A DNA stretch of 22,257 bases from a virus. Where the stretch lies: positions 1 through 22,257 of the IMG/VR virus record IMGVR_UViG_3300025159_000753. One strand, written 5' to 3'. Both the position numbers and the translations under genes were made by a program. Each line of letters starts with the position of its first letter. Position 1 is the stretch's first letter. Of the stretch, positions 3,726 to 22,146 are shown piece after piece. The notes under the pieces are model-generated. The model was not told where the DNA came from, made no database searches, and saw only the letters and a program-made list of their open reading frames with translations.

Positions 3726-3753
3726 ATTCGCAGTTCATTATTTTTCCACCTCC
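3726..3753. repeat. 28-bp exact direct repeat, copy 2 of 2
   Basis: Identical to 2738-2765. Here the unit ends the 55-residue membrane-protein gene (VEK-TAA) and starts the six-codon mini-ORF MNCECA. Recombination between the copies would delete 988 bp and place the membrane gene directly upstream of the 97-residue gene, with the TAATG coupling intact. Confidence 0.9.
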
Positions 3754-4039: not shown

Positions 4040-4435
4040 TTACACATTCGCAAAATCAAAGGATGTTGTCAACTTTGTTTTGCGATTTCTTCCACAAAAT
4101 TTATAGATATAGCCCCTCATTCCTTGTGAGGCCAATCTCGCATAACTCGCTGCCAGGTCGGCACCCTTACCTCCTTTTAGTAATATCTCTAGGACTCCTT
4201 CCTGGATTAAATCGTCCTGCAAATCCAGGCGGGCGAAATATTTTCTCTGCACTGACTTGGCTATTTTGTATGCCAAGTCTACATCTATTTTACAATGGAT
4301 ATCAATCTCCTTTTTATGATATCCAAGACAAAAATACCCTCTTTTTTTCGCCCGGTAAAAGGTTGCCCGGTGAATACCATACTGCCGCTGCGCCTCCTGC
4401 AGCGTATTTGACTCTAATATCATAATCTTAATCAA
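4040..4435 (-). CDS. HTH / sigma-70 region-2-like DNA-binding protein
   Basis: The protein has 131 residues, with a TTG start at 4435 seven bases after GAGGAG and an 8-bp overlap with the upstream gene's stop; the ATG at 4423 is an alternative. Residues about 12-34 (LQEAQRQYGIHRATFYRAKKRG) look like a helix-turn-helix. Residues about 52-117 (DLAYKIAKSVQRKYFARLDLQDDLIQEGVLEILLKGG...GMRGYIYKF) resemble sigma-70 region 2 (DLxQEGxLGLL). There is no clear region 4, and the HTH precedes the sigma-like part, which is reversed from normal sigma order. It may redirect host RNA polymerase or act as a transcription adaptor. It is coupled to the vWA pair upstream. Confidence 0.55.
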   Translation of the reverse strand: MIKIMILESNTLQEAQRQYGIHRATFYRAKKRGYFCLGYHKKEIDIHCKIDVDLAYKIAKSVQRKYFARLDLQDDLIQEGVLEILLKGGKGADLAASYARLASQGMRGYIYKFCGRNRKTKLTTSFDFANV

Positions 4436-4991
4436 TTTGCAACTCCTCTTGTAACTCCTCGATTAGTGTCCGTCCTCTAGCGCTGAAAAAAGTTCGGCAG
4501 ACAGATGCCTCTGCCTCGGCATCTGTCTTGTAATACCGTTCTTTAAGATTACTTAACGTACTCATTTTTTTTACGAGCACGTTTTGATTTAGCCGCAAAA
4601 GACCTGCATCGGCCATTTGCAAGACTATTTTTTCGATTTTCCTATATGCCCTCCCTAGATATTCCGTATTAATCCACGAGAAGGCGTCGTGGATTAAATC
4701 CTCTAGGGATTCGACAATCATCAAATCTTGAGAGGCGATGATTATCGAGTCGGTTTCCTTTCTTTCTTCCTTGCGGATTAAGGAGGGGATGACTACCCCG
4801 TGTGGCGATTTGCGAACGGAGAAAAACTCCATCTGCAAATCGCCCTTTTTTGTCCTTGATTCCACAAAATAAAATGTGGAATCTGACATCGGATTTCCGG
4901 TTTGGGTGAGGATAAAAGGTTTTTTTTGCTGCACCTCCCCAACCCTGTTTTTGACGTAAAATGACTTGTGGGCGGTATATGCCATGCTCAT
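4428..4991 (-). CDS. vWA-coupled protein of unknown function (187 aa)
   Basis: Not recognised. The ATG overlaps the vWA gene's TGA by four bases (ATGA), so the two are translated together and probably act together. The N-terminal half (residues 1-95) is beta-rich (KSFYVKNRVGEVQQKKPFIL, then DSTFYFVESRTKKGDLQMEFF). The C-terminal half is helical and charged, ending EELQEELQID. No nuclease, ATPase or transmembrane motif is visible. A second in-frame ATG two codons downstream is possible. By context it is the candidate binding partner or effector of the vWA protein. Confidence 0.65.
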   Translation of the reverse strand: MSMAYTAHKSFYVKNRVGEVQQKKPFILTQTGNPMSDSTFYFVESRTKKGDLQMEFFSVRKSPHGVVIPSLIRKEERKETDSIIIASQDLMIVESLEDLIHDAFSWINTEYLGRAYRKIEKIVLQMADAGLLRLNQNVLVKKMSTLSNLKERYYKTDAEAEASVCRTFFSARGRTLIEELQEELQID

Positions 4992-5542
4992 CTGCCACTT
5001 CCTGACAGCGCCAATAGCTGCCCTTTTAAAGTAGGCAAGTCTTCTATTTTTACATTTGTTGCCACCCGGCCACCCGATACGGCGGATAGGGTTTTCATAA
5101 ATGCAATTCCTTTTGGATCATCTCCGATCAAAATTGTTTCGATCGGAATCCTCCTTGATTCCGCTACATTTAGCGCGGAATCCTGATTATCTGGCAATCC
5201 ATCACTTACCAAGATAATCTTTTTCGTTGTTGGAGGGATAGCCTCCAACGCTGCCGTCAGGTTTGTACTGCCTGACGGATACATTTGGGTCGTTCTGACC
5301 ACAAAGTTAAAATACAGTTTGTCGCATTTTAACTCTCTTATGGCATCGAGTAAGTACTCGTATTTACTTTTGCCGTCATACTTTTCCCCCATACTCCCGG
5401 AACAATCCAGGATGAGCATTGTACCGGTGAAATTGTTGCTTTTTTTAATTGTGGCTTGCAGTCTATCACAAAAGGAAAGACTTTTTACTTCTGCAATGTC
5501 GCCTGATTTGGTGAGTCTCCTTTTACATTCCGTTATTATCAT
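4988..5542 (-). CDS. von Willebrand factor A domain protein with intact MIDAS
   Basis: The 184-residue protein is nearly all vWA domain. LILDCSGSM gives the DxSxS metal site (D46, S48, S50). GSTNL supplies the MIDAS Thr (T93), and ILVSDGLPD the Asp (D114). All metal-coordinating residues are present, so metal-dependent protein binding is expected. Residues 1-38 form a short charged lead-in; there is no signal peptide or membrane anchor, so it should be cytoplasmic. The ribosome site is CGGAGGAGGAAC. It is followed by the overlapping 187-residue partner and the sigma-like gene. No MoxR-type AAA+ ATPase, the usual partner of bacterial vWA proteins, lies in the window. Confidence 0.85.
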   Translation of the reverse strand: MIITECKRRLTKSGDIAEVKSLSFCDRLQATIKKSNNFTGTMLILDCSGSMGEKYDGKSKYEYLLDAIRELKCDKLYFNFVVRTTQMYPSGSTNLTAALEAIPPTTKKIILVSDGLPDNQDSALNVAESRRIPIETILIGDDPKGIAFMKTLSAVSGGRVATNVKIEDLPTLKGQLLALSGSGR

Positions 5543-5564
5543 TATTTTGTTCCTCCTCCGAATA

Positions 5565-5642
5565 TCACAAGTATATCACACCCAACAATTCCACAACGGC
5601 AATCTTTGTAGCCATTCCAGATTTATCCCAGGTTATCTTCAT
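5565..5642 (-). CDS. possible 25-residue peptide upstream of the vWA gene
   Basis: MKITWDKSGMATKIAVVELLGVIYL follows AGAAGGAGAAGGAAAA, a strong ribosome site almost identical to that of the 71-residue gene at 5920. Its stop lies just upstream of the vWA gene's own ribosome site. It could be a real micro-protein, the start of a broken gene, or a leader peptide. Confidence 0.4.
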   Translation of the reverse strand: MKITWDKSGMATKIAVVELLGVIYL

Positions 5643-5670
5643 TTTTCCTTCTCCTTCTAAGTTTGTATCC

Positions 5671-5690
5671 CCCCGCCCGGACTAGCGGGG
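5671..5690. other. GC hairpin between two leftward genes
   Basis: CCCCGC (5671-5676) and GCGGGG (5685-5690) form a 6-bp stem around an 8-base loop. No T-run follows on either strand, so it is not a standard terminator. It may stabilise or partition the leftward mRNA. Confidence 0.4.
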
Positions 5691-5704
5691 AGATGGGTTA
5701 AAAA

Positions 5705-5920
5705 TTAACTTAATAACACTACGCCCAGGTCGGCATACGTTATGTCAGAGTGATTCCTCAAGATTGCCTTGAGTTTGCTTGTACTGATTTTTACTCCACC
5801 ACCCTCACAATCAAGGTACGGACTGTACAGAATGTGTATATTACCGTCCGTAATTATATATTCGCCAATATCTATCTTGTCGAGATTGTGCAAGTTTATT
5901 CTTACTTCTCCTGGCTTCAT
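5705..5920 (-). CDS. hypothetical protein (71 aa), first gene of the leftward operon
   Basis: Not recognised. The start follows GAGAAGGAGAAGGAAA. The protein is compact and beta-rich (MKPGEVRINLHNLDKIDIGEYI, then DGNIHILYSPYLDCEGG), with a helical C-terminal third. Its upstream DNA holds the best leftward promoter of the window (about 5978-6004) and a hairpin in the leader, so it is probably the first gene transcribed in the 5920-to-2009 direction. Confidence 0.65.
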   Translation of the reverse strand: MKPGEVRINLHNLDKIDIGEYIITDGNIHILYSPYLDCEGGGVKISTSKLKAILRNHSDITYADLGVVLLS

Positions 5921-5954
5921 TTTCCTTCTCCTTCTCTCAGAGTTTTAGTCGGTT

Positions 5955-5970
5955 TGCGGCACACGCCGCA
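5955..5970. other. leader hairpin of the leftward operon
   Basis: TGCGGC (5955-5960) and GCCGCA (5965-5970) form a perfect 6-bp GC stem with a 4-base loop. It lies just downstream of the predicted leftward start site and would sit at the 5' end of that transcript. Confidence 0.45.
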
Positions 5971-5976
5971 CACTAG

Positions 5977-6004
5977 GATTATAAGCGATAATCGTGCCGC
6001 TCAA
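5977..6004 (-). promoter_or_regulatory. leftward promoter with overlapping operator-like repeat
   Basis: On the minus strand a perfect TATAAT (5978-5983) lies 15 bp downstream of TTGAGC (5999-6004); shifting the -35 by one base gives 16 bp. The -10 is contained in an inverted repeat, GATTAT-N5-ATAATC (5977-5993), which suggests repressor control. It would drive the 5920-to-2009 operon. Confidence 0.55.
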
Positions 6005-6025
6005 AAAATTATTTTAATTATTTTT
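6003..6025. other. AT-rich block, possible DNA-unwinding element
   Basis: Twenty-three consecutive bases contain no G or C except the ending context. The block lies 100 bp from the iteron array, as expected for an unwinding element of a plasmid-type origin. In an AT-rich genome it is weak evidence by itself. Confidence 0.3.
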
Positions 6026-6123
6026 GCTCAATAACCCGCAAACCCGCACGCAATAAGCAACAGCGGGCGATTATATATTTTCGCAAATTGTGCGGTTGCA
6101 ACACAGTCTCAGTTGTTTTGACC

Positions 6124-6227
6124 ATTTTCGGTCAGCCTTGATGCCCCAAAACACGATGTAACTTTCTATCGGTCAACCGTTTGCGACTTTCGGTCAGCAA
6201 GTGTCCATTTTCGGTCAGCAAGTGGCC
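6124..6227. repeat. four iteron-like TCGGTCA repeats in 21-bp phase
   Basis: TCGGTCA occurs at 6128-6134, 6169-6175, 6190-6196 and 6211-6217, with start-to-start steps of 41, 21 and 21 bp, so all four face nearly the same side of the helix. The last two share a longer unit (TTTCGGTCAGCAAGTG), and the first shares ATTTTCGGTCAGC with the last. This periodicity is typical of initiator-protein iterons or a multi-site operator. No Rep gene is visible in the window. Confidence 0.7.
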
Positions 6228-6245
6228 ATACAGACTTATCGTTTA

Positions 6246-6265
6246 GTGCAGTATTTTTACTGCAC
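6246..6265. other. perfect 8-bp hairpin with TTTT loop
   Basis: GTGCAGTA-TTTT-TACTGCAC. No T-run follows, so it is not an intrinsic terminator. It sits between the iterons and the parS site and could be a cruciform, a primosome/single-strand site, or a dimeric-protein binding site. Confidence 0.6.
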
Positions 6266-6275
6266 CTGAAAGAGG

Positions 6276-6294
6276 TGTGGAATTAGTATCCACA
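6276..6294. promoter_or_regulatory. inverted repeat with DnaA-box-like half
   Basis: TGTGGA (6276-6281) and TCCACA (6289-6294) are perfect inverted repeats with a 7-base spacer. The right half extends to GTATCCACA, one mismatch from the DnaA consensus TTATCCACA. In the context of the iterons this supports an origin. Confidence 0.4.
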
Positions 6295-6305
6295 TGCGCT
6301 AGGGT

Positions 6306-6321
6306 TGTTCCACGTGAAACA
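6306..6321. promoter_or_regulatory. parS: parS site (ParB/Spo0J centromere consensus)
   Basis: TGTTCCACGTGAAACA matches the established chromosomal parS consensus TGTTNCACGTGAAACA at every defined position. A chance match of 15 fixed bases in a 22-kb window is very improbable. No parA or parB gene is in the window, so the site would be read by the host's ParB or by a phage ParB encoded elsewhere. It lies about 80 bp from the last iteron. Expected effect: ParB loading and spreading, giving segregation or local DNA condensation. Confidence 0.85.
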
Positions 6322-6689
6322 TAATTGCTACAGAATATAGAGAGCAAGAGAGCATACGAAACGTATGTATGTGTATGCACGTTTTGTATCAATGTAACAT
6401 AATATGTATTATCAGACGTTGTTTTGTGGGTGATTCAGGAGGGAGACTTCATTTTTCTTCATATTTCGTCCGTTTTCTTTTGTGCTTTCTGCTGGATTCT
6501 CACTACGTACAGGGGGAGGGGGGGGAGCGGTTTCTGCTTTTCCACTGGGTTCGTATAATATAGGTCACAAACACACACCAAGTATATAGTTATGACTAAA
6601 AATGAATAAAACTAGAATAAGCTAACCCCTATTTAAACAATAGGAAAGTGCGTTGATTTTTATAGGTTTTAGGGTTTGTCGATTATTAG
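6322..6689. other. gene-poor stretch after parS
   Basis: I see no convincing gene. It holds a perfect inverted repeat CATACG-AAA-CGTATG (6353-6367), a pyrimidine-rich stretch (about 6449-6495), a G-rich tract (6512-6530), an isolated perfect TATAAT (6553-6558) without a good -35, and a small inverted repeat CCTATT-N5-AATAGG (6628-6644). Confidence 0.5.
6512..6530 (+). other. G-rich tract, possible G-quadruplex
   Basis: Five G's, an A, eight G's, then AGCGG. It stands out sharply from the AT-rich surroundings and follows a pyrimidine-rich stretch on the same strand. Four G-runs are available, but the last is only GG. Confidence 0.35.
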
Positions 6690-6857
6690 TTATCTATCGA
6701 GCGTCATAATGTTTTTACAGGCGTGGCAATGGTATTCTTTTTTATTGGTGGTTAAGATTAACAAGGTATGGCATTTGGTACACATGATTTTGTAATGATA
6801 GCCAAATAAACGAGGCTGGGAATCGGAATCTTTGTTTATTGGTTTTTTATAAGGCAT
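6690..6857 (-). CDS. small zinc-ribbon protein (55 aa)
   Basis: MPYKKPINKDSDSQ... leads into YKIMCTKCHTLLILTTNKKE and HCHACKN, a complete four-Cys zinc ribbon (C26, C29, C44, C47) with 14 residues between the pairs. The frame is open upstream with no other normal start, and no ribosome site precedes the ATG. A TATAC motif sits only a few bases upstream, so the message could be nearly leaderless. Its layout (basic/proline N-terminus, then CxxC) resembles the next leftward gene, 6930-7157, and they may be distant relatives. Function is unknown. Confidence 0.6.
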   Translation of the reverse strand: MPYKKPINKDSDSQPRLFGYHYKIMCTKCHTLLILTTNKKEYHCHACKNIMTLDR

Positions 6858-6929
6858 AAGAGGGTATACAATAATAAGAGTTGGGTAGTAATATAAAAGG
6901 CTGCCAAGAATACTTTTGTTATTTACTAA

Positions 6930-7157
6930 TTAACAAAAAGAGAGTTGACGTTGATTTAAAGTGACCATTTTATTGTTTGTTTGCTTTTCAGATTCTAGCA
7001 TATACATTTGTTTGCAGTTCGGGCAATAGAGATATGATTTGAATGTAAAGGATCTATTTGATCGGAGCGGGGTTGGTTTTGGATATCTTCGGATGACAGG
7101 AGTGTAGCCTTTTCTGCATTTTTGACCTTCGTACAACATTTTTATTTTATTGGACAT
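6930..7157 (-). CDS. small basic zinc-binding protein (75 aa)
   Basis: The product has a very basic N-terminal half (IRRYPKPTPLRSNRSFTFKSY) followed by YCPNCKQMYMLESEKQ, a zinc-ribbon half. Additional Cys residues occur at position 14 and at the extreme C-terminus. No ribosome site precedes the ATG and the upstream DNA is AT-rich. A leftward -10-like TATTAT lies about 50 bases upstream within an inverted repeat (7197-7214). It is probably a nucleic-acid-binding regulator; no family is recognised. Confidence 0.5.
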   Translation of the reverse strand: MSNKIKMLYEGQKCRKGYTPVIRRYPKPTPLRSNRSFTFKSYLYCPNCKQMYMLESEKQTNNKMVTLNQRQLSFC

Positions 7158-7196
7158 GTTTTATATTAAACAATTTTAAAGATTAAAAACATTAAG

Positions 7197-7214
7197 ACTA
7201 TTGTATATAATAGT
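7197..7214. promoter_or_regulatory. inverted repeat upstream of the leftward zinc-ribbon gene
   Basis: ACTATT-N6-AATAGT, AT-rich, 40 bp upstream of the ATG at 7157. It overlaps a leftward -10-like TATTAT. It may be a promoter/operator, with low confidence because of the base composition. Confidence 0.3.
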
Positions 7215-7225
7215 TTTTAAAGTTG

Positions 7226-7255
7226 CTGGTCTTTTACTAACAGTTCGGCGACCAG
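7226..7255. other. hairpin in the divergent intergenic region
   Basis: CTGGTC (7226-7231) pairs with GACCAG (7250-7255) around 18 bases. No T-run follows on either strand. The gap between the leftward gene (7157) and the rightward operon (7435) otherwise contains a C-rich run (7265-7271) and A-rich DNA. Confidence 0.3.
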
Positions 7256-7378
7256 ACCTAAAAGCCCCCCCTCACCTCTGGCCCCACCGACATAGCGAAA
7301 TGATACTACATAAATTTATGTTTGTCCAGGTAAATCCGAAAAAAATGTAAAAAAAATGTAAAAATATCTTTTTAATGC

Positions 7379-7408
7379 TTGACAGTGGTATACCATATAT
7401 GGTAATAG
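7379..7408 (+). promoter_or_regulatory. rightward late promoter with palindromic operator in the spacer
   Basis: A perfect -35 TTGACA (7379-7384) is followed by TAATAG at 18 bp (7403-7408). The spacer and -10 edge contain a perfect 14-bp palindrome, TACCATATATGGTA (7391-7404), where a bound dimer would block polymerase. It stands in front of the long rightward packaging and structural operon. The -10 is weak, which suggests dependence on an activator or a modified polymerase. Confidence 0.6.
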
Positions 7409-7434
7409 TTAAATCAATACATACAATAAAGACT

Positions 7435-7710
7435 ATGAATATAACTCCTTCAAAGGCTATCAAACTGGAATGTAAGTGGTGCATGGGAAGCGCAAAAAGT
7501 TTTACATGCGATAGCCAGATTTGCGAATTGAACAACAGGACACTATCACACTTAAAACGTATTAAACTACACTGTCTTGATTGCGTGGAAATAAGACGAG
7601 AGATTAAGGATTGCACAGTTAAATTACTTTCTGAAGACAGGCTTTGTTATTTGCATCCATACAGACTCGGACACAATCCGAAAAGAATCAGAGCTAAGTG
7701 GCTTCAATGA
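7435..7710 (+). CDS. small Cys-rich phage protein (91 aa)
   Basis: The frame is open from 7375, but the start is placed at 7435 (MNITPSKAIKLECKWCMG) because the promoter and operator at 7379-7408 lie over the earlier Met codons. Cys pairs CKWC and CLDC, plus CDSQIC and later single Cys residues, suggest two metal sites. From memory, proteins with a C-x2-C / HCLDC-x2-I/S-R-x-E-I-x-x-C / HPYRLG pattern commonly sit just upstream of phage terminase genes. This one ends DRLCYLHPYRLGHNPKRIR, matching that pattern. Its role is unknown. It overlaps the next gene by ATGA. Confidence 0.6.
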   Translation: MNITPSKAIKLECKWCMGSAKSFTCDSQICELNNRTLSHLKRIKLHCLDCVEIRREIKDCTVKLLSEDRLCYLHPYRLGHNPKRIRAKWLQ

Positions 7711-7954: not shown

Positions 7955-8389
7955 ATGCCTAAAATAACAAACCTTGCTAGCCAGGCAGGACAATTAGACG
8001 TTATACAAAGAATTGCGGCAGGACAGTCGCAGACTTCTATTGCAGAAGAATACGATGTCGACCAATCTACTATTTGTAAATTCGTAGCAAGAGACGAAAT
8101 TAGGAAAAAAGTTGAGGTGGAAAGAGATAGATTGGTGGCCACCCTGCCTGATGCTGTGGAAAACATCAGAAAAATAATAATGAATATGTTGGATTCGACA
8201 GATATTCGGGGAAAAGAGTTAGCCTATAAAGCTAGCAAGGATTTGCTTAAAGGATTAGGTCTTTATTTAAATCCGGCAATGATGGTTAACGTATATAACG
8301 ATAATCGGAAAAAGATGACCGTAATACATCCAGACGTTCTTCAAATATTGCAAAATCATTCAATCACTGGAGAAAAATTAATTGACTGA
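7955..8389 (+). CDS. terS: probable terminase small subunit
   Basis: The protein of 144 residues has an N-terminal helix-turn-helix (residues about 16-50: IQRIAAGQSQTSIAEEYDVDQSTICKFV) of the type used by small terminases to bind the packaging site. A helical middle with many charged residues follows (about 52-110), then a short beta-type stretch with NVYNDNRKKM, a motif I associate with small terminase C-terminal regions. Size and position, upstream of the large terminase, fit. A generic HTH regulator is the alternative. It is separated from the large subunit by four fibre/spike genes, which is unusual. Confidence 0.6.
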   Translation: MPKITNLASQAGQLDVIQRIAAGQSQTSIAEEYDVDQSTICKFVARDEIRKKVEVERDRLVATLPDAVENIRKIIMNMLDSTDIRGKELAYKASKDLLKGLGLYLNPAMMVNVYNDNRKKMTVIHPDVLQILQNHSITGEKLID

Positions 8390-10051: not shown

Positions 10052-12205
10052 ATGAAACACCCGTTTCAGTCGATATTTAAAGATGGGCAAGGTAAGGTTG
10101 TAGTCGGGGGGAACGTTACTGTTTATAAAGCAGGGACAACGACTCTTGCCAATATATATTCAAGTGAATCCGCCGTTAGTCCGATAACTGGAAGCGTTGC
10201 AATTTCCGGCAACATAGGGCAATATAACTTCTGGGTAGACGATAGCGAATATTTCGCAAATCAAAAGTTTGATCTTCAATTAAGTAAAACAGGTTTTACT
10301 ACGCAGCTTTATACAAATATTCCAATTATACGGGGGCTGGAATATGATTATTATGCAGATTTTAATGAGGCAGATCAGGGAATAACGGGAAATGGCAATA
10401 CTATTAAAGCAATAATCGATACTATAGGTTTGGCAGATAAATCTGTTGCTTTAAAAGGTGGTGTTTTTACGATTGCAACAAATTTAGAAGTTCCATCAAA
10501 TATTACCACGAAAATCTTGCCGAATTCATTTATTGCTACAAATCCAAACAAATCATTTACTATTAATAATTTTGAAGATATTAGCTTATATCGGGCATTT
10601 ACAAATAGCGGAACAATAAAATTGCCAAAGCGCCATTCTCATAGCAAATGGTTTGCCAAAGGAGATGGCGCAACAGACGATACTCTAGCGTTATTGCGGT
10701 GGATCGCCAGCGCCGATCATCTTATTTTGGACGATGGCACATATATTGTCAATAGACAAGGCTCAGAAGGCGTTGTATTAGGATTGCGCTCTAATATAAT
10801 TGTCGAAGGGGACAGAAATGCAATTCTTAAATTTGGGGCCGGCGTTAACGACACCAATTTTTGGCGCGTCATCGGCATTAGCAAATCAAGCGGTGCAGCA
10901 GCAAATTACGAAAATATAACGTTAAGGGCATTTACTGTCGATGGCAATACAAACAAGACTGATTATGATGCACTCTATGAGCAAAATCATGGCATATTTT
11001 TCTACAATAATACAGGTTATATTTCCAATATTATAGTGGACGAGATGAACGTTGGAAACTGTTCCGGCGACGGTATGGCAATTTCAACAGGGACAAAGGA
11101 TGTATATATTACCAATTGCAGAGCGACGGATTGGCTTCGTCAAGGTATTAATTGTGCAGGTAGCGGGAATATTGTAATCGAAAAAAATTATTCAAACAAA
11201 ATGGCGAGTTCTACATATTCAGGGTCAGGCATTCACGCAGAGCCATCTTTGTCAATTACAGGAATGTATGTTGCCCATAACGAAACCTATGCATTATTAG
11301 TGAGCGGGCATAACGATGCAGATCCTTTGATTGGCGCAAGGATACATCATAATCGTGTTTTCGGAAGCAATATCGGTGGGGCTTTTCATAAAAACATAGA
11401 GATAACAAATAATTCTTGTCCCTATATTTTAATCACCAGAACCGTCGGAGGAAAAATTCTTCACAATAAAGTTGAAACTGACATAGACATAGAAGGTATT
11501 TATGTTGCTGCTGTATCCGGGGTCGGATCTGATATTGTAATTATGGATAATGATGTCTCTACCTCCTATGTCACGCCCACAAAAGCGGCCATTTATTTAA
11601 ATCAAAATAACGGACAATCAATTTTATACAATAAGACCGATAATAGGTTTAAATATGGAATCAGAACACAAGGAGGGAGTAATAATAAAATTATAGGGAA
11701 TAACGCAAGCGGGACTACCAATGGATTATTGCTGTCATCTCAAGCAGCAACGCCAACTTCTGGAATTTCAATTGTTGCGAATAATATTCTAGATGGTACC
11801 GTAGCTGATATGGATATTGGCGATAGTACCTGGATCGGATTACATTTAAGCAAAAACAAATTGGTTAATAATACGGTAACGTTTAGCGGAACTCCTACTT
11901 TTATTTTCGATGATTACGAACGAATCTCAGCAGATATTGGGAATGCCGCTGCAACCTTATACCCCGTCACCTCACCACAAACCAATATTTGGAACACCCC
12001 AATATCAGCAGACCGTGCCGTGACGCTATCTACTACGGGCGCACAAAACGGAATGAAATTCAAAATTGTTAGAACTGCTGCCGCAACGGGCGGATTTAAT
12101 CTTAACGTTGGGACTGGCCCTCTTAAAGCATTAGCGGCAGGACAATGGTGCGAGGTTGAACATAATGGTACGGCATGGTTTTTAATAGCTTTCGGATCGC
12201 TATAA
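10052..12205 (+). CDS. tailspike / receptor-binding protein with right-handed beta-helix
   Basis: A protein of 717 residues. Residues 1-100 (FKDGQGKVVVGGNVTVYKAGTTT...) resemble the N-terminal virion-attachment domain shared by many phage spikes. At about 203-230, WFAKGDGATDDTLALLRWI and then DDGTYIVN is the classical entry into a pectate-lyase-like beta-helix. Residues about 230-600 show repeated short strands with Asn ladders (NIVIEKNYSNK, KNIEITNNSC, NKIIGNNASG), as in polysaccharide-degrading spikes. The last 80 residues (RAVTLSTTGAQNGMKFKIVR...WFLIAFGSL) look like a C-terminal beta cap. It probably binds and cleaves host surface glycan. Active-site residues cannot be assigned by eye. There is no signal peptide. 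Confidence 0.8.
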   Translation: MKHPFQSIFKDGQGKVVVGGNVTVYKAGTTTLANIYSSESAVSPITGSVAISGNIGQYNFWVDDSEYFANQKFDLQLSKTGFTTQLYTNIPIIRGLEYDYYADFNEADQGITGNGNTIKAIIDTIGLADKSVALKGGVFTIATNLEVPSNITTKILPNSFIATNPNKSFTINNFEDISLYRAFTNSGTIKLPKRHSHSKWFAKGDGATDDTLALLRWIASADHLILDDGTYIVNRQGSEGVVLGLRSNIIVEGDRNAILKFGAGVNDTNFWRVIGISKSSGAAANYENITLRAFTVDGNTNKTDYDALYEQNHGIFFYNNTGYISNIIVDEMNVGNCSGDGMAISTGTKDVYITNCRATDWLRQGINCAGSGNIVIEKNYSNKMASSTYSGSGIHAEPSLSITGMYVAHNETYALLVSGHNDADPLIGARIHHNRVFGSNIGGAFHKNIEITNNSCPYILITRTVGGKILHNKVETDIDIEGIYVAAVSGVGSDIVIMDNDVSTSYVTPTKAAIYLNQNNGQSILYNKTDNRFKYGIRTQGGSNNKIIGNNASGTTNGLLLSSQAATPTSGISIVANNILDGTVADMDIGDSTWIGLHLSKNKLVNNTVTFSGTPTFIFDDYERISADIGNAAATLYPVTSPQTNIWNTPISADRAVTLSTTGAQNGMKFKIVRTAAATGGFNLNVGTGPLKALAAGQWCEVEHNGTAWFLIAFGSL

Positions 12206-12220
12206 AAAGGAGAATAAAGT

Positions 12221-12676
12221 ATGTCATGCGAAGAATTTAAAATTATAGAATCAGACGTTACGGCAAATTTTACTGATGCACTAGTTCAGGACGCAAAAGA
12301 AGACGAAGATGTTTCTATGCCTGCTGATTGGACAACTTGTACTATCAATAAATGTGCTATCTCGGGAGTATCGATCCAGTCTAAACAAAATCTGGAATTC
12401 GATTTAATTTTATGGTCTAAGTCGGCCAAAGATAATACATCGTTGAATCTTGACAATTTTGTTATAAGTTTGAATTTTCCAGTTTCCAGTGGTAAACAAA
12501 TTGCCGCAGCCAATCAATATTATTATGAGCAAGACAATTTGATTCCTATTAAATATAATGACGATAGCAATCAAAGCAAGATACATTGCAGTATTGTAAA
12601 TCGTAGCATTACCGCTAAAGACGCAGGCGTTGCGGGACAGATAAAAGTGAGATTCGTAGCATCGCCTAGACTATAA
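12221..12676 (+). CDS. hypothetical structural protein (151 aa)
   Basis: Not recognised. The start follows AAAAGGAGAATAAAGT. The first part is acidic (ALVQDAKEDEDVSMPADW), followed by a beta-rich body with Lys/Asn/Ser turns. It has four Cys residues but no zinc-ribbon spacing. Lying between the tailspike and the large terminase in the late operon, it is probably a minor virion protein or a spike accessory/cap. Confidence 0.6.
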   Translation: MSCEEFKIIESDVTANFTDALVQDAKEDEDVSMPADWTTCTINKCAISGVSIQSKQNLEFDLILWSKSAKDNTSLNLDNFVISLNFPVSSGKQIAAANQYYYEQDNLIPIKYNDDSNQSKIHCSIVNRSITAKDAGVAGQIKVRFVASPRL

Positions 12677-12680
12677 AAAT

Positions 12681-13766
12681 ATGTTACGACTAGAGAATAT
12701 CCCCGAATGGGGAATGAAGCAACTGAACGATTCTAAGAATTTCTTATCGTATCAATGCACGGAACAAGCACTGCAATTTCTAAACGAGCCTGCGCGGACG
12801 CTAGCCATATTCTATGGTAATCAGGCGGGCAAGAATGCGCTTGTATCTTATAATTATGTAGCACGCATTCTCGGCAAGCATCCAGTAGCCAAGAAAAATG
12901 TTTTATATTTTGAATGCGATAACAAGACCAGTCCAACGAAAATGCCGAATATTTTTGAAGGTCATACTTTTGCGCCTTATAAAGTAGATAATGGCAATAT
13001 GACGAAATGTCCGATTTGTACTGCTAAATTAATGCCACATATACGTAAATCGAGAATATTCAGATTTGCGTCTGAAAGATTGCCGACACAATCGGAAGAC
13101 ACGAACGAAGACGGTGGTTCGTCTGCGGAAGTGTCAAATACCCAATATCCTGAATTCAAAAAATGGCTGCCGCCTTATTTGATTAAAAACGACATTGTAG
13201 CACGGAATCTATCTGTGATTGTATATGACCCATTTGGTGGCGATGATATTATTGTAGAGTTTGTTTCGTATGGGCAGACGGCTCGAAGCCAAAAAGGCGT
13301 ACAGCGTTTGAGCGTATGGATGGACGAAGAACCTCCGGAGAATTTTTTTGGCGAGCAATATCCAAGAATTATTATGGAAGATGGAGATATTATTATAACT
13401 TATGCACCCGTAGAGGATATTACATATTTATACGATATGATTTACGAACGAGCAAAAATTTATTACAGAACGAAAACGGTTTGCGAAGAATATTATAAAA
13501 AAGTAGAAAAGAAGTTTGTTCCACAAATACAACTAACTGGATTAAATGATAAAAAAGACATTGCCGTATTCCAGGCGGCGACTTCCGATAATCCTATGTA
13601 TAAAAATAGAGACGTACGCGATATTTTGGGCATATATGACGATATTGACGTGTTTTACATGCGATTCTTTGGCATATTCAAAGCAATTTCGGGCAGGATA
13701 TTTAAATGTTTCGACCCTAGTATTCACGTAATCGACGAAGCTAGATTTTTTAAGGACGCAGCTTAA
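12681..13766 (+). CDS. terL: terminase large subunit, ATPase part
   Basis: A protein of 361 residues. A P-loop GNQAGKN lies at residues 46-52, where most relatives read G-N-Q-x-G-K-T/S; here the last residue is Asn. Walker B is LSVWMDEEPP (D215, E216), and a TYAP coupling motif is at 240-243. A CPIC (C110, C113) with C79 and H120 may form a zinc knuckle inserted in the ATPase. The gene ends FFKDAA-TAA, and the very next codon in the same frame is the ATG of the nuclease part. Together they would make a normal-sized 578-residue large terminase. Its role is ATP-driven packaging of DNA into the prohead through the portal encoded downstream. Confidence 0.85.
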   Translation: MLRLENIPEWGMKQLNDSKNFLSYQCTEQALQFLNEPARTLAIFYGNQAGKNALVSYNYVARILGKHPVAKKNVLYFECDNKTSPTKMPNIFEGHTFAPYKVDNGNMTKCPICTAKLMPHIRKSRIFRFASERLPTQSEDTNEDGGSSAEVSNTQYPEFKKWLPPYLIKNDIVARNLSVIVYDPFGGDDIIVEFVSYGQTARSQKGVQRLSVWMDEEPPENFFGEQYPRIIMEDGDIIITYAPVEDITYLYDMIYERAKIYYRTKTVCEEYYKKVEKKFVPQIQLTGLNDKKDIAVFQAATSDNPMYKNRDVRDILGIYDDIDVFYMRFFGIFKAISGRIFKCFDPSIHVIDEARFFKDAA

Positions 13767-14417
13767 ATGATACCCCACGACTGGACGCATTTCAGGGCCA
13801 TTGATTATCATGAATTATCGCCATGGGCCATAATATTTGTTTCATTATCGGGCTACGATGAAGCCTTTGTCTGGGGCGAATTAAACCCTTCGCCTGAAAA
13901 AAACACTACGAAAATGATTGCTGAGATGATTGCCGACAAGAGCGGCGATTATAAATTTCAAATGAATTTAGTCGATCCATTGGCTATGGTAAGACAATCA
14001 AATACGGGGTCTACGGTTGTAGAAGACCTGAATCATATTTTTAATACTTATCGGAAAGAGGGTAGATGCTCCGGTGGAACGTGGGAATCGTGGGATACCA
14101 AAGCGACAGTTGGGCGGGATAGAGTCAGGGAAAGATTGATGAATGCATCGATGTGTAAGAAGCCTTTTAATAATGAAATTTTAAAAGATGGCATACCCGT
14201 CAGGGTCCCTACGTTATGGATATTTAATTCTTGCGTTAATACTTATAAATCATTGCAGCTTTGGCGATTGGAAAAAGATAGGCCAGCGCAAATGTGGAGT
14301 CATTTTTGTATGACATTGGAAGCATTAATGAAAGACGTTAGATTCAGGCCCAGGAGAATCGAATATGCGGAACAACGGAAAAGTCCGCATTCATCGTATT
14401 TTAGGACAAATAGATGA
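13767..14417 (+). CDS. terL: terminase large subunit, nuclease part
   Basis: A protein of 216 residues whose start directly follows the TAA of the ATPase part, in the same frame. The ribosome site AAGGA lies 10 bases upstream inside the previous gene. HFRAIDYHELSPWAII (D13) and FQMNLVDPLA (D70) match the first two acidic motifs of the RNase H-like terminase nuclease. The third acidic residue is not assigned with confidence. The IPxDWxxFRAIDY opening is what normally follows the ATPase linker in intact proteins, so the split falls exactly at the domain boundary. It should cut concatemeric DNA at headful or cos/pac sites. It overlaps the portal gene by ATGA. Confidence 0.8.
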   Translation: MIPHDWTHFRAIDYHELSPWAIIFVSLSGYDEAFVWGELNPSPEKNTTKMIAEMIADKSGDYKFQMNLVDPLAMVRQSNTGSTVVEDLNHIFNTYRKEGRCSGGTWESWDTKATVGRDRVRERLMNASMCKKPFNNEILKDGIPVRVPTLWIFNSCVNTYKSLQLWRLEKDRPAQMWSHFCMTLEALMKDVRFRPRRIEYAEQRKSPHSSYFRTNR

Positions 14418-16360
14418 TTAACCAACCGGTAATAGAAGAAAAGAAGGCGGACGAGGGAAACAGGAGAATAGAAAACGCTTTAGCAACTCTTGTTTATAGT
14501 GAATACCAAATTTCTAAAACAAATAAACAGGGGGCGGATGCTGATCAGGAGGCTTATTTGGATTTATTCGATTGTATACGTTCGGAGAAGGATTATGACT
14601 GGAATTCAGACGTTTTTATTCCTGATTTTTTAACACATATGCTTGTCCAATCGAGCTTGTTTGTAGGACAATATTTTAAATCTCGTGAGTTTGTAGAGGT
14701 ATACGTTGCCAGCGAAAAAGACAAGGATATCGCTGCGGCGGAAGCCGATAAAGAGTTGGTTAATAGAACGTTGAACCAAAAACATCTTTATTATTATAGT
14801 AAATGTTTAAGGGCCGTTAATATGAAAAATATTTGCGGACATATTTATTTCCGCTGCTGGTGGGAGAAAAAAAGCAAGAAGATAATTACCGGACAAGAAT
14901 TAGTGCAAGTTGAAAACGAACCAGAAAGATATATTCCTATTTATGGACAAAAATTAGTATACGATAGATTTAATTTTGGCCTCCTAGACCCTCGTGACGT
15001 TTTTACTTCAAACGAATATACTTATAGCTTGCAGGAAAAAAAATGGATAATTATTAGATTTGATTCAACTATTGAGGAACTTGAAGATAATAAGGAATTA
15101 ATGGGCTATACTAATCTTGATACGTTGAAATTGGCGCATTTGGGAAGTTTCCAAACTGAAACCAAAGGTTCGGAGTCGAGCAGCTATTATACTAAAGAGA
15201 AGAAACCGGAATCCCCTTCTACTCCTATAAAAAATTGGATGATTCTCGAGCGACATGGTAAGTATTGGGCTGACGTTATAACTCGTAATCAATTAGGCGA
15301 ACCATTGGAAATCAGACCAGGCATTGACGAACAGGGCAAGCCGCTTGATATTGCCGAATTGTTCGATGTGGTAATTACTTATGCAGTACATGGTGATAAA
15401 AAATATTTAATCCGATTTCAATTGGCGCCTTATATGGATGCCGAGGGTAATAGATACAAACCAATTATCAGAGGTTTATGTTATATTCATCCTACAATGG
15501 ATACGGGTTTTGGCGACGGCAAGGGCATGAGAGAATTACAAATAGCCATTAATGATAATATAAATATGAGCAATGATCGCGTGAAATTTGCAATGTCGCC
15601 GGTACTAAAAGGCAGAAGAAACGCAATAGAAGATAATGAATCTATTTATTTTGCGCCAGAACACATTATAATGCTTGACGATCCGGAGAGAGATTTAAAA
15701 GAGATACAAATATCGTCCGATATTAGTGGGGCATTAGCCCAGACTCAATATTTTACCAATAAAGAGGAGGCTGTTAGCGCAACGTTCCCAACTACAACGG
15801 GTGCATTGCCTTTGTTTGCTAGCACAACGGCAACCGCGGTTGCCGGGGCAGAATCCAGAGGTGATACGAGAAATAATTATCGCTATTTAACTCAGGAAAA
15901 TACGTTATTTTCGGAGTTATATTGGATGATAACGCAAATGACATATCAATTTGCTAATCAAGAAACGGCAGAGAAATTAATGGGTGATAAGGCTTACGAT
16001 TTCAATCCAACGTTGGATTATACCTACAAACCCGTTAGCGAATCAATAGAAACGGAAGTAAGTAGACGTGCAAAAATTCAAAACTGGCAACAAGTATTGC
16101 AAATTGTTTCAAATTTGCAACATCCCGATGCCGTGAAAATGGTTAATTTCGTATTTGCAAAAATAGCGGCATTGATGGGCGATGAATATGTTAATTTTGC
16201 CGATAAATTATTGAATCCCAAAGAACCTATCGGAAAATCACAAGGGCAGGAAATGCCCGTCATGACGGGAATGCCTATGTCTAATCAAAATAACGTGCCT
16301 CAGTCTGCATTGGAAACGCAGGCTCGGTCTGCGATGGAAGGTATGAATAATGCTCGATGA
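14414..16360 (+). CDS. portal protein
   Basis: A protein of 648 residues immediately after the terminase, with a four-base ATGA overlap. The N-terminal 170 residues are helical and charged (EAYLDLFDCIRSEKDYDWNSDVFIPDFLTHML). A DPRDVFTSN-type segment and a GFGDGKGMRELQIAINDNINMSND region (about 370-395) are typical of podovirus-like/P22-type portals. The C-terminus is low-complexity (PVMTGMPMSNQNN). It forms the dodecameric vertex where the terminase docks and the neck attaches. Assignment rests on size, position and these patterns. Confidence 0.75.
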   Translation: MINQPVIEEKKADEGNRRIENALATLVYSEYQISKTNKQGADADQEAYLDLFDCIRSEKDYDWNSDVFIPDFLTHMLVQSSLFVGQYFKSREFVEVYVASEKDKDIAAAEADKELVNRTLNQKHLYYYSKCLRAVNMKNICGHIYFRCWWEKKSKKIITGQELVQVENEPERYIPIYGQKLVYDRFNFGLLDPRDVFTSNEYTYSLQEKKWIIIRFDSTIEELEDNKELMGYTNLDTLKLAHLGSFQTETKGSESSSYYTKEKKPESPSTPIKNWMILERHGKYWADVITRNQLGEPLEIRPGIDEQGKPLDIAELFDVVITYAVHGDKKYLIRFQLAPYMDAEGNRYKPIIRGLCYIHPTMDTGFGDGKGMRELQIAINDNINMSNDRVKFAMSPVLKGRRNAIEDNESIYFAPEHIIMLDDPERDLKEIQISSDISGALAQTQYFTNKEEAVSATFPTTTGALPLFASTTATAVAGAESRGDTRNNYRYLTQENTLFSELYWMITQMTYQFANQETAEKLMGDKAYDFNPTLDYTYKPVSESIETEVSRRAKIQNWQQVLQIVSNLQHPDAVKMVNFVFAKIAALMGDEYVNFADKLLNPKEPIGKSQGQEMPVMTGMPMSNQNNVPQSALETQARSAMEGMNNAR

Positions 16361-16682
16361 ACTAAATTTAGAGAAACTTAAAATCGACGAGTTCCAGACA
16401 TATATAAAAAAAAAGCCTCAGAGTAGTTACGAGGCAATTACGAGAACATTATCTAAATGTCAAAATTATATTGATTTGTTCGATTCTCAAATTGGACAAA
16501 TATTGTTAAGTGATTTAATGCCGATGATACAAGAAAGAATTGGTGCGGTTATAGACGGCAAAATAACCGACGAGGCCAGAATAGAGTTAAAGGTTATGCT
16601 GAATCTTATGAATCGATGGAATAAAATGGTTAGCGACTATAACAAAAATTGTGAGATAGTAAGAAAAACAATCATTGCCTAA
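16350..16682 (+). CDS. small helical protein between portal and scaffold (110 aa)
   Basis: It overlaps the portal gene by 11 bp. The protein is almost entirely helical and polar (LEKLKIDEFQTYIKKKPQSSYEAITRTL, then DEARIELKVMLNLMNRWNKMV). No catalytic motif is seen. Similar short helical ORFs often lie between portal and scaffold in phage head modules, perhaps as an assembly factor. The function is not known. Confidence 0.6.
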   Translation: MLDELNLEKLKIDEFQTYIKKKPQSSYEAITRTLSKCQNYIDLFDSQIGQILLSDLMPMIQERIGAVIDGKITDEARIELKVMLNLMNRWNKMVSDYNKNCEIVRKTIIA

Positions 16683-16705
16683 ATTTATATAAGGAGTATG
16701 TTTTT

Positions 16706-17485
16706 ATGTCAAAGGCAGAAAAAGAACCAGACGCAATGTTAGTAACAACGACAGAAGCAGCGTTGGAGCCAGCGCTAGAGCCAGTGCTAGAGGAGAAAGA
16801 AAATATTAATGAAGAAATAGAAAATCTCAAATCGGAAAGGAAAAGATTGCTTGAGGAGCGGTCGGATATGGGCCGCAAAATCAAGCAAATGCAAGACGAT
16901 TTTGGATTTTTGAGGGAGGAAGTTTTTAGATTAAAAACGCCAGTCGCAAAAGAAGTTATTGATCCTGAATTAGAATCGGAACTTTTAGATTTTAACGATC
17001 CTAAACAAATTGCTAATATTGCCCGAAAAGCGGCAAATATGGAAATCGAAAAAAGGGAAAAAGAAAGAGTGGATAAGGAATCTGAAAAAATATCGGCTCA
17101 AAAAAATTATGAAGATAAATTATATGACGAACTCCAAAAAACATATTTAAAAGGCGACAAGGAAATCGAAGACGAATTGTTGTCAATGAAATTTACACAA
17201 TCGGGCGATCCAATAGCAGATGCAGAAAGATTTTATAATAAAGCAGAAACGGCAGTATTGAAAAGAAGAATAGCCACGTTGACTTCTAAAAAAGAAAGTC
17301 CGTTTAAAGGTACAAATACGAACATGGCTACAGGCGTAGGTGGTTCTTCAAATGTATCGACAAGAGAGGTAAGATTGCCAGTTATATCAGATGAAGTTCA
17401 AAGGTTGTTAGTAAGATTAGGTAAAAATATAGAAAAGCCGGAAGATCGGCAATGGGCGGTTGATGCTTTAGCTAAAATCAAATAA
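16706..17485 (+). CDS. probable scaffolding protein
   Basis: The start follows ATAAGGAG. The 259-residue product is highly charged. It has an acidic repeat-like start (ALEPALEPVLEEKE), a long predicted coiled coil (residues about 28-78: INEEIENLKSERKRLLEERS...), a second helical Glu/Lys-rich stretch (about 105-140), and a small basic C-terminal region (EVQRLLVRLGKNIEKPEDRQW) that could contact capsid protein. Composition and the position between portal and capsid genes are typical of internal scaffolds. No protease motif is seen. Confidence 0.6.
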   Translation: MSKAEKEPDAMLVTTTEAALEPALEPVLEEKENINEEIENLKSERKRLLEERSDMGRKIKQMQDDFGFLREEVFRLKTPVAKEVIDPELESELLDFNDPKQIANIARKAANMEIEKREKERVDKESEKISAQKNYEDKLYDELQKTYLKGDKEIEDELLSMKFTQSGDPIADAERFYNKAETAVLKRRIATLTSKKESPFKGTNTNMATGVGGSSNVSTREVRLPVISDEVQRLLVRLGKNIEKPEDRQWAVDALAKIK

Positions 17486-17872
17486 ATGAGAAATGAGACA
17501 AGACTGCGATGGCAACGAAAAAGTAAAGTCCGCAAAGAAAGCCGGCGAATTAAACTCCCCGGCGACGAGCCGGAAGGCGGCGCACTTTACCGATGTTGGA
17601 ATTGTGGTCAAATATGCGATGAGAGTAAAGATGCGCTTGGCGGCAAGTCGAGCGGAAGCGGGGCTGTATATTTGGACTATATCGAAGAAGCTCAAGGAGC
17701 AGAATCAGGCATACCGGAATCCGCTATGTCGGTGATGAGCGGTATACTCCACGTAATGGTCGCCCTCCCCTCTGATTTGAGCGGGAATCCAGGCCTTGAC
17801 CCTCACATCCATGTTATAACCGGCACGGGATGCCCTCTGTGCCATTCGTTAAATTGGAGAGGAGATTATTAG
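17486..17872 (+). CDS. zinc-ribbon head-module protein (128 aa)
   Basis: The ATG directly follows the scaffold stop. The product has RIKLPGDEPEGGALYRCWNCGQICD (C37, C40 region), DALGGKSSGSG and a C-terminal CPLCHSLNWRGDY. From memory, proteins with LPGDxPEGGxLYRCWNCG...GCPxCxSLNWRGDY are common in phage head operons, just before the capsid gene. Two CxxC pairs imply one structural zinc. The N-terminus is unusually basic. The other ORF in this stretch (17493-17735) lacks such conservation and is a shadow. It ends with TAG just before a strong ribosome site. Confidence 0.7.
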   Translation: MRNETRLRWQRKSKVRKESRRIKLPGDEPEGGALYRCWNCGQICDESKDALGGKSSGSGAVYLDYIEEAQGAESGIPESAMSVMSGILHVMVALPSDLSGNPGLDPHIHVITGTGCPLCHSLNWRGDY

Positions 17873-17883
17873 GAGATAAAATT

Positions 17884-18690
17884 ATGGAAGTTGTCAATAG
17901 AAATAGCACTGGGCAGGGATTGTGGGTGCCGGTAGATTCCACGTCTAGCCCAACGCTATATGTTGGTTCTTTAGTTAAATCTGCCGGCGATGGCGTAGGT
18001 CTCGTAGCAATTGCGTCGGGCGCAAGAGATACGTCTCAAAAGCAGGTATTATGCGGAGTCGTAACTGCTACTAACGATAATGCATATACAAAGACGACTG
18101 ACGAGACGACATTGCAGGATAAAATAACAGGCATGACTTCGCAGGCTGCACAAACAGCCAGGAATTTTTGGGGTGCGAATCAAGGCCCAATACCGGCAAA
18201 TGACCCGCAGCCATTTGTATATATCGAGCAAATTGACGCAGCTACCATTTTGAGAGCGCCTTTGTATAATGCTACGTGGGGCGTTGCTCCAACATTGTTA
18301 ACGGTTACGACAGGCTCAAGCACAGGATTAGGCTTTACTTCTAATGCTTGTGATTTTACGCCTGTTGCAGATTTATGCACGTCCTTTGGAAGGTCTGGTG
18401 CAAACGTGAGCATAGCAAGAATCTCGGATGATACCAGCACGACAGTCGAAACAAACGATGTTTCTTTTCCGCAAGACATTGCGGTGGGAGATAAGTTTGT
18501 AAGAGTGCCGCTTAGGCCTTGTTTTGAAAGTTTTGTGCAAATTGATGCCAAGTCAATGTTTTTCGATATTTCCCAAACTCCAGCTACCAATTACTTCAGC
18601 ATAATTGTTTTAAGACTGGACTTATCCGTTGCTGGCAAGGAATATGTTGAATTCAAATTTTCGCCTGAACACTTCATGGCCAGGGCATAA
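17884..18690 (+). CDS. head structural protein upstream of capsid (268 aa)
   Basis: The start is set at 17884 (MEVVNRNSTGQGLWVPV), which follows TTAGGAGATAAAATT; the frame is open from 17830 but those codons lie inside the previous gene. The protein is Thr/Ser/Ala-rich and beta-type, with a STGQGLWVPVDSTSSPTLYVGSLV opening that I associate with phage capsid-decoration or minor head proteins encoded next to the major capsid gene. No enzymatic motif is seen. It is probably a virion component. Confidence 0.6.
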   Translation: MEVVNRNSTGQGLWVPVDSTSSPTLYVGSLVKSAGDGVGLVAIASGARDTSQKQVLCGVVTATNDNAYTKTTDETTLQDKITGMTSQAAQTARNFWGANQGPIPANDPQPFVYIEQIDAATILRAPLYNATWGVAPTLLTVTTGSSTGLGFTSNACDFTPVADLCTSFGRSGANVSIARISDDTSTTVETNDVSFPQDIAVGDKFVRVPLRPCFESFVQIDAKSMFFDISQTPATNYFSIIVLRLDLSVAGKEYVEFKFSPEHFMARA

Positions 18691-18708
18691 AAGAAAGGAG
18701 GAATAAAT

Positions 18709-19650
18709 ATGGGTATGTCAACTCAACAGTCGCAACAATTTGCAGCCATTTTGGAAAAAAAACTATATGACGTGACAAAAGAACGGCAAGCGCTTGGAGA
18801 GCTTCCCGATCCTGTATTGGATTTATATACGGATATAACTGATAGTAAAAATCCATACGAGGAATTCATGGAATTATCTACGTTAGGAGATATTCAGGAA
18901 TTCAATGGCAAATTTACGACACAAAGTCTTTATGAGGGATTTACGACCAAGATAGAATTGAAAAGATATGGTCTTATGGTGGCTACCGACCGGGACTTGG
19001 TCGATGACGAGAAGTTTGGAATGCTAGAGGAAGTGGCGGCCGGTATGGTTGATGGCTGTAATAGATTGAGACGGAAAAATGCCGTGCAGACTTTTGCACG
19101 TGCAAATACCGTTGCATTCGATACCATGAAATCAGGAGAGGGCGTAAGTCTTGCTTCTACTGGGCATAAGACGAAAGTTCCTGGTATTAGCACGGCAACG
19201 GGCTTTTCTAATTCCGGAACGGATGCTCTTACGAAATTATCTCTGGCTGCTGCTAGAATTAATATGCGTAAATTCAGGAATAGTCAGGGAATAAGATTTA
19301 ATACGACTGGCGATAACTATGCAATTATACATCCAGACGAATTAGATTTTAAAGTACAAGAGATTTTAGGTACGCCTTTTGGCTTGGATACTGCTGAACA
19401 TAACAAAAACGTCCAGGCTGGTAAGTACAAATCTATCAATTCCTTGTTGCTTAGCGATTATTCATCAACGTCATGGGGATTAATTGATATGGATATGGTT
19501 AAAAAATCTCTGAAATGGATACAGAGAGCAAAAGCCGATTATAAAGTCACTATCGACTTTATGACTTTAGCCACGATGCAAAGCATCTACGAAAGACACG
19601 GCTACGGTTTCGTGGGGTGGAGATGGCTGTATTGGAATACAGTCGTCTAA
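18709..19650 (+). CDS. major capsid protein
   Basis: The start at 18709 follows AAAGGAGGAATAAAT. The 313-residue protein fits a HK97-fold capsid of the Mu gpT-like type: KKLYDVTKERQALGELPDPVLDLYTDITDSKNPYEEFMEL, then EFNGKFTTQSLYEGFTTKIELKRYGL. A central Gly-containing helix region and a conserved C-terminal domain follow (NYAIIHPDELDFKVQEILGTPFGLDT and GYGFVGWRWLYWNTVV). It comes after the scaffold and before a hairpin, consistent with high expression. It assembles the icosahedral shell. Confidence 0.75.
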   Translation: MGMSTQQSQQFAAILEKKLYDVTKERQALGELPDPVLDLYTDITDSKNPYEEFMELSTLGDIQEFNGKFTTQSLYEGFTTKIELKRYGLMVATDRDLVDDEKFGMLEEVAAGMVDGCNRLRRKNAVQTFARANTVAFDTMKSGEGVSLASTGHKTKVPGISTATGFSNSGTDALTKLSLAAARINMRKFRNSQGIRFNTTGDNYAIIHPDELDFKVQEILGTPFGLDTAEHNKNVQAGKYKSINSLLLSDYSSTSWGLIDMDMVKKSLKWIQRAKADYKVTIDFMTLATMQSIYERHGYGFVGWRWLYWNTVV

Positions 19651-19664
19651 GTTTACAATTATCG

Positions 19665-19691
19665 TCCGGCAATCTGACGAGGGTTGCCGGA
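19665..19691 (+). other. hairpin after the capsid gene
   Basis: TCCGGCAA (19665-19672) and TTGCCGGA (19684-19691) form a perfect 8-bp stem with an 11-base loop, 15 bases after the capsid stop. No T-run follows, so it is not a full terminator. It may protect the capsid mRNA 3' end or allow partial readthrough. Confidence 0.6.
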
Positions 19692-19770
19692 TGAATTTAG
19701 GGTAATGGCTGGTTGGATTCCGGCTGGTATTGCATGAGACAGGGCGATATTCCTGAATAAAGGAGCATAT

Positions 19771-21432: not shown

Positions 21433-21448
21433 TCTTAGTTTATTATTT

Positions 21449-21478
21449 ATGGAGAGAGGCAATTTTGCCTCTCTCCAT
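21449..21478 (+). other. 14-bp perfect hairpin in the late operon
   Basis: ATGGAGAGAGGCAA pairs fully with TTGCCTCTCTCCAT around two T's. The sequence after it is CACAAATTATT, without a U-run, so it is either a weak terminator or an RNase III-type processing or stability element. An ORF starting at the ATG in the stem (21449) is not credible, because the next gene has its own ribosome site beyond the hairpin. Confidence 0.75.
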
Positions 21479-21505
21479 CACAAATTATTAGGAGAGAAAA
21501 AAATT

Positions 21506-22129: not shown

Positions 22130-22146
22130 ATTCAGGAGATTGTAAA

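Follow-up and report, generated by a model that had tools for sequence, protein, structure and literature searches.

An exact chromosomal-type parS site in a phage with no recognised ParA or ParB gene, and the recurrence of such sites across phages

The DNA word parS is among the best conserved of bacteria, most of which have ParB, the protein that loads on it. What such a word might do in a phage is the question raised by a single IMG/VR virus record, IMGVR_UViG_3300025159_000753, which is classed as linear and was analysed over its whole length of 22,257 bp (hereafter, the window). The original prediction held that the 16-mer at 6306-6321 (plus strand), TGTTCCACGTGAAACA, fits the bacterial parS consensus at every fixed position. 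This is confirmed here, as the site presented no mismatch to TGTTNCACGTGAAACA at any of the 15 fixed positions (one mismatch when read on the opposite strand) and thus has the sequence by which bacterial chromosomal parS is defined. The record has no other exact match, and we regard the 16-mer as a putative loading site for host ParB. A first-order Markov model predicted 3.0e-5 exact matches per window, both strands included, and for 5921-7374 by itself the figure was 4.4e-6; a shuffle control that allowed up to three mismatches (mean 0.71, two or more matches in 22 of 100 shuffles) is irrelevant to an exact match. According to the ORF list, no ORF of 60 aa or more crosses the site in any of the frames, and the longest stop-to-stop frame spanning it has 63 codons. 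The outer bases are G before and T after, one of which fits the usual A/T frame.

It had also been claimed that no ParB or ParA gene lies in the window, and profile searches agreed. ParB_N (PF02195) matched none of four records (the window and G001 to G003) and AAA_31 (PF13614, ParA) none of five (the window, its sister contig and three relatives), so that neither gene of a self-contained ParABS system was found by these searches, the sister included. Likewise, Phage_integrase had no match in the window or the sister, and the genes recognised include none for plasmid replication, a repressor or an integrase. The sister, IMGVR_UViG_3300025174_000064 (G001, 36,864 bp), displayed 99.8-99.9% identity over the window and carries the identical 16-mer at 27433-27448 as its only parS site; the search for parB was thereby extended beyond the window, and PF02195 found no match in these 36.9 kb. 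As the sister is almost identical, the shared site is no test of selection. Another near-identical contig, G002 (15,643 bp), aligns only to 11973-22257 of the window and stops short of the site. A MORN-repeat reading frame exits both ends of the sister on the same strand (L128:1-657 and L129:18156-18364), which suggests a circular or permuted genome broken within one repeat gene, and we infer that this contig is probably near complete. Among selected proteins of this contig, family scans picked out a DnaB-type helicase, a DNA methyltransferase-like, an endonuclease-like and a holin-like protein. The observation of an orphan parS-type site is therefore confirmed.

Two divergent gene blocks flank the stretch that holds the site (5921-7374), whose own ORFs are all short and doubtful (6930-7157 on the minus strand, for example). 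The leftward block begins with an ORF of 71 aa (5705-5920, minus strand) without a PHROG match, and the rightward block with one of 111 aa (7375-7710, plus strand) without a PHROG or Pfam match. The window's cumulative GC skew is lowest at 6178, which is 128 bp from the site, and gene orientation switches at the same place as the skew. Three copies of an iteron-like word, TTTCGGTCAGC, were found inside 6125-6219 as direct repeats on the plus strand (TTTTCGGTCAGC at 6125-6136, CTTTCGGTCAGC at 6187-6198 and TTTTCGGTCAGC at 6208-6219); an 11-mer present at least three times occurred in 11 of 1000 Markov-simulated regions. Folding of 6100-6330 as DNA disclosed an 8-bp hairpin, GTGCAGTA-TTTT-TACTGCAC (6246-6265, plus strand), the fold of the whole region being not significantly better than that of shuffles (z -1.15), and at 6286-6294 (plus strand) stands GTATCCACA, a weak match that is one mismatch from a DnaA box. 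The divergent stretch resembles an origin or a regulatory switch. As to an origin, the signs are no more than suggestive, because the skew change coincides with the switch in gene direction and 33 such DnaA-like matches occur in the window. With the sister treated as a circle opened at the site, the detrended skew minimum fell 3.9 kb downstream and was shallow (-18, versus a maximum of +609).

Other signals in this region were few. Promoter-like matches in 5500-7500 were at chance level (7 versus 6.4 expected), terminator signals were no more than chance, and the Spo0A, CtrA and DnaA words, taken as signs of the host, gave nothing significant in the window, where TGTCGAA, presumably the Spo0A-box word, has three scattered exact matches. 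DNA similarity was found neither between 5900-7000 and phages nor between 6050-6420 and plasmids, and Rfam and tRNA scans of the window gave no match. In the same intergenic stretch, the sister carries 142 extra bases at window position 7276/7277. The leftward block contains an exact 28-bp direct repeat (2738-2765 and 3726-3753) near the ends of small ORFs, a weak HTH match below cut-off (4040-4435) and, at 4988-5542 beside two ORFs without strong family matches, a von Willebrand factor A match too weak to reach the Pfam cut-off.

The rightward block, from 7375, comprises a small terminase subunit-like gene (7955-8389, plus strand; PHROG 2538, E 3.5e-6), the large terminase (12681-14417, plus strand), a major head protein and further ORFs. 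The large terminase is carried by two abutting ORFs (12681-13766 and 13767-14417) and was named via its relatives, since, of the 14 members of the alignment, six match Terminase_6N and two PHROG 2; the window's own copy had no terminase family match, and the best hit of the profile to solved structures was no better than E 0.22. At 13764-13769, a TAA followed immediately by an ATG (KDAA*MIPHDW) interrupts the frame, in the sister as well. This break separates the part aligned to the ATPase half from the remainder, and the terminase may be made as two polypeptides; in the eight relatives compared (seven IMG/VR loci and L178) the frame is uninterrupted. A 648-aa ORF beside the terminase gave nothing in tblastn against the phage collection (phi29 included) and no match in genome contigs.

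We used the terminase to reach more distant relatives, which in IMG/VR amounted to 36 loci, two of them the near-identical contigs. The prediction of a host-type parS had allowed that a lack of the site in related phages would tell against it, and here it stands in part only: the site is real, unlikely to be due to chance and orphan in the sister too, but it is not conserved in the wider group. In their whole records, none of 14 terminase relatives (L134-L147; best-segment identity 33-48%) displayed parS within two mismatches; three of these records are of 47, 46 and 53 kb and the others are fragments of 4-17 kb. The flanks of 20 weaker relatives (L148-L167) yielded a single two-mismatch word, in L162, and two viral-contig scans gave relatives at 100% or at no more than 48% identity, with none between. 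Given the 14 relatives, parS is not a trait that the wider group has long shared. A terminase-profile scan of genome contigs gave one relative, a 50-kb contig binned to a MAG of candidate division WOR-3, in which the 21 kb examined held no parS within three mismatches; the one exact parS of that MAG sits on a different contig. We do not claim WOR-3 as the host, a phage contig in a MAG bin being weak host evidence.

The word is nonetheless in excess among phages at large. In IMG/VR, the consensus scan returned at least 120 matching stretches, versus 10 for a reversed-word control. The free base in their 149 sites was T in 102, C in 41, G in 4 and A in 2, and outside the searched word, where the search demanded nothing and background was not computed, 80 of the 149 had A before and 85 had T after. 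ParB_N was found in 6 of 120 listed records at E 1e-3 or better, 4 of the 6 being above the curated cut-off, although many of the 120 are fragments; the search was run in three sets of 40 (two matches in each), and seven terminase relatives included alongside gave none. A terminase homologue (cluster c0, c5 or c7, one representative of each matching PHROG terminases) was present in 42 of the 120 loci, and ParB_N in none of these 42. On this basis we rejected the possibility that the matches are host fragments, though some contamination is likely among the other 78 loci, which were hardly tested. A conserved protein motif was likewise rejected as the sole source of the excess, as the word is read in more than one frame: the 56 sites in ORFs of 150 aa or more encode V.R.T in 42 cases, FHV in 13 and CFT in one. 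The word may nevertheless be protein-driven in one group (L035, L045, L084 and L087), where it is readable as V(S/P)RET of a small protein. While 67 of the 149 sites are not within ORFs of 80 aa or more (82 are), versus 12.4% of the DNA, this comparison is weaker than it appears because 4 of the 10 control sites are outside such ORFs too. One 201-kb record, L106, carries parS at 4944 and 5819; the 20 or so bases to either side are nearly identical in the two copies and have TTTTGACAAAATG / GTGTCAAAATG arms, so that the pair looks like a repeated control element.

A similar picture was obtained with the 50,697 records of INPHARED, queried with N-padded 18-letter words and counting matches of at least 16 exact letters of the extended palindrome. 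The T form was present in 315 records and the C form in 164, versus none for two control palindromes. It is the excess rather than the count that we take as the result, since the two lists overlap and hold RefSeq copies and close relatives, which are not independent, as well as some probable host DNA. Phages of Listeria, Microbacterium, Arthrobacter and Gordonia lead the T-form matches. The Listeria count of 87 is probably inflated, because unannotated records named Listeria phage LM 4-11-1 / 4-14-1, some with several parS places and one with 10, look like host chromosome fragments. Microviridae also appear (14 records for the T form, 10 for the C form), and a partition reading does not readily explain matches in these small ssDNA phages. 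Escherichia-named phages contribute at most 6 T-form records, as names outside the ten shown cannot exceed 6 records, and at most 3 C-form records, although the collection has 538 Escherichia records recognisable from T4-like capsid genes alone. In plasmids, a search with no control palindrome and a limit that seemingly admits 17-18 letters only gave the T form in 18 of 72,556 records, a few of which are as large as a chromosome. Among phages, 38 of 60 evenly sampled rows reach 17 letters, that is, about 200 of the 315 records, in a third of the plasmid DNA amount.

Eleven annotated phages were searched whole. All displayed an exact parS, and ParB_N was found in one (Microbacterium phage KaiHaiDragon). 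The inspected site lies between annotated genes in Roseobacter phage DSS3P8, Gordonia phage Woes, Butyrivibrio virus Arian, Stenotrophomonas phage BUCT548, Arthrobacter phage Huntingdon and Lactobacillus phage Bacchae, in the direct terminal repeat of Pseudomonas phage phiPsa374 (L182, record 1-526), in the left terminal repeat of Vibrio phage phi 3 (L186), directly next to the end of a small CDS, and inside or overlapping genes in phi29, KaiHaiDragon and P100plus. A parS in a terminal repeat, as in phiPsa374 and phi 3, is present at both genome ends and is perhaps among the first DNA entering the cell. The first eight of these phages resemble the window in having an exact parS, no ParB_N match and an inspected site outside annotated genes, but differ from it in that six (all but Huntingdon and BUCT548) carry more than one site; kinship to the window phage is not claimed.

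The closest known precedent is phi29, which carries the 16-mer of the window, identical, four times and has no ParB_N match; its relatives PZA, Goe1 and B103 are among the INPHARED matches. We take the parS sites of phi29 to be what Spo0J reads. Spo0A is reported to suspend the lytic cycle of phi29, which enables Spo0J to trap the phage chromosome in the spore (Meijer et al. 2005, EMBO J, via PMC9437464). The window and its sister share with phi29 a host-type parS without a ParB of their own, use of host ParB being reported there and proposed here. However, phi29 has four copies, the inspected one in gene 10, and a known host that sporulates, whereas the window phage has one copy, outside ORFs. 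Bacterial chromosomal ParABS offers the same consensus and a position near an origin-like skew switch, but the window site belongs to a phage in which neither ParA nor ParB was recognised. Phage-plasmids such as P1 and N15, and the actinobacteriophage parABS systems, have their own ParA and ParB and a plasmid-type parS; as in these, the window site would serve the inheritance of an extrachromosomal phage, but neither gene was found in the window phage.

We believe that some use of host ParB, whichever of the three considered below it may be, is very probable. The reading that we prefer, with a probability of roughly one half, is that this chromosomal-type parS is read by host ParB, most likely so that a phage genome kept outside the chromosome can be positioned and passed on. 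Once loaded there as a CTP clamp, host ParB would slide out over the flanking phage DNA and attach the phage genome to the ParA/SMC segregation machinery of the host. The benefit would be an extrachromosomal genome that is placed and inherited in cells not lysing at once, in a carrier or dormant state comparable to that of phi29 and the spore. We infer the binding by host ParB, the partition complex and the carrier-state role. Placement and inheritance are favoured by the case of phi29, by the lack of a recognised tyrosine integrase and by the effect of one parS on plasmids: two papers report that unstable plasmids gain stability from chromosomal par operons with one parS (PMC7022226), and that P. 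aeruginosa parAB with one parS does so (PMC4368675). They are weakened because no plasmid-type gene was recognised, and the carrier state is without independent support because genes for plasmid replication, a repressor or an integrase were not recognised. The single site in the 36.9-kb sister and the distance of 3.9 kb to the skew minimum of the circular sister also speak against this reading.

Control of gene expression is an unlikely, though the next best, explanation. ParB spreading from the divergent region would repress or delay the promoters of both blocks, and the phage would thereby sense the cell-cycle state of its host. The location between divergent blocks fits, and so do two reports, namely that P. 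aeruginosa ParB lowers the expression of adjacent genes when parS is inserted upstream of a promoter (PMC7022226) and that the phi29 family also halts its lytic cycle through host Spo0A (PMC9437464). However, the promoter-like matches at chance level, the 82 of 149 listed IMG/VR sites within ORFs of 80 aa or more and the two exemplars with parS in terminal repeats argue against it. A little less probable still is a service during the lytic cycle, in which clamp loading and SMC recruitment would condense, protect or position phage DNA as it enters or replicates, or ParB would be titrated off the host chromosome by the growing number of phage copies. Those same terminal repeats, the nearness of the window site to the skew switch and the presence of parS in phages that we take to be lytic (phi29 and P100) are all consistent with such a service, but one site per genome would be a weak sink and the window phage has no known terminal repeat.

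That the match is due to chance, or is a neutral scrap of host DNA without function, we consider improbable. Findings such as this one result from a choice among many windows and motifs, none of the 14 terminase relatives has the site, and the IMG/VR control allows for some 10 chance matches beside the at least 120 found. Nevertheless, that control bounds chance at about 8% of the IMG/VR matches or less, and the expectation of 3e-5 per window, the two INPHARED controls without a match and the absence of an ORF of 60 aa or more over the site all point the other way. Finally, the site is most improbably the operator of a phage-encoded regulator, or of a divergent centromere protein sharing the palindrome, for although several leftward-block ORFs have no family match and one has the weak sub-cut-off HTH, all 15 fixed positions agree with the ParB site consensus and the sister has no ParB_N match, even if that search would miss a ParB-like protein that has diverged very far.

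The principle of a phage using host ParB is thus already known from phi29, and the new part is its breadth across phages. In the open literature, seen in part and with preprints and subscription papers outside the scope, we found no description of orphan host-type parS across phages, which is weak evidence of absence: PMC3362512 has nothing on parS, PMC10197239 maps parS in gut bacteria beside prophages, with nothing on parS in phages in its available passages, and those of a 2025 survey of the ParB fold (PMC12704722) cover phage ParB-like proteins without mention of orphan parS. That an orphan parS gives phages the use of the host segregation clamp as a general strategy, with many independent origins and beyond phi29 and sporulation, is a hypothesis for which we see even odds; as a whole it would span lytic and possibly temperate phages of ParABS hosts. 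To our knowledge, Enterobacteriaceae lack chromosomal par genes. If the strategy is general, orphan parS should be rare in Enterobacteriaceae phages, and rare also in plasmids, where competition with the host centromere would be harmful. Some parS-bearing phages, we assume, infect hosts that do not sporulate, and for a specialist the surprise would be this recurrence across many phages, in terminal repeats and presumably in such hosts. With those of the named phages that have laboratory hosts, the borrowing is testable at once. If phages regularly borrow parS, host ParB and SMC may be the route by which their DNA is placed, inherited without integration and silenced, and the conflict between phage and host would then extend to chromosome segregation.
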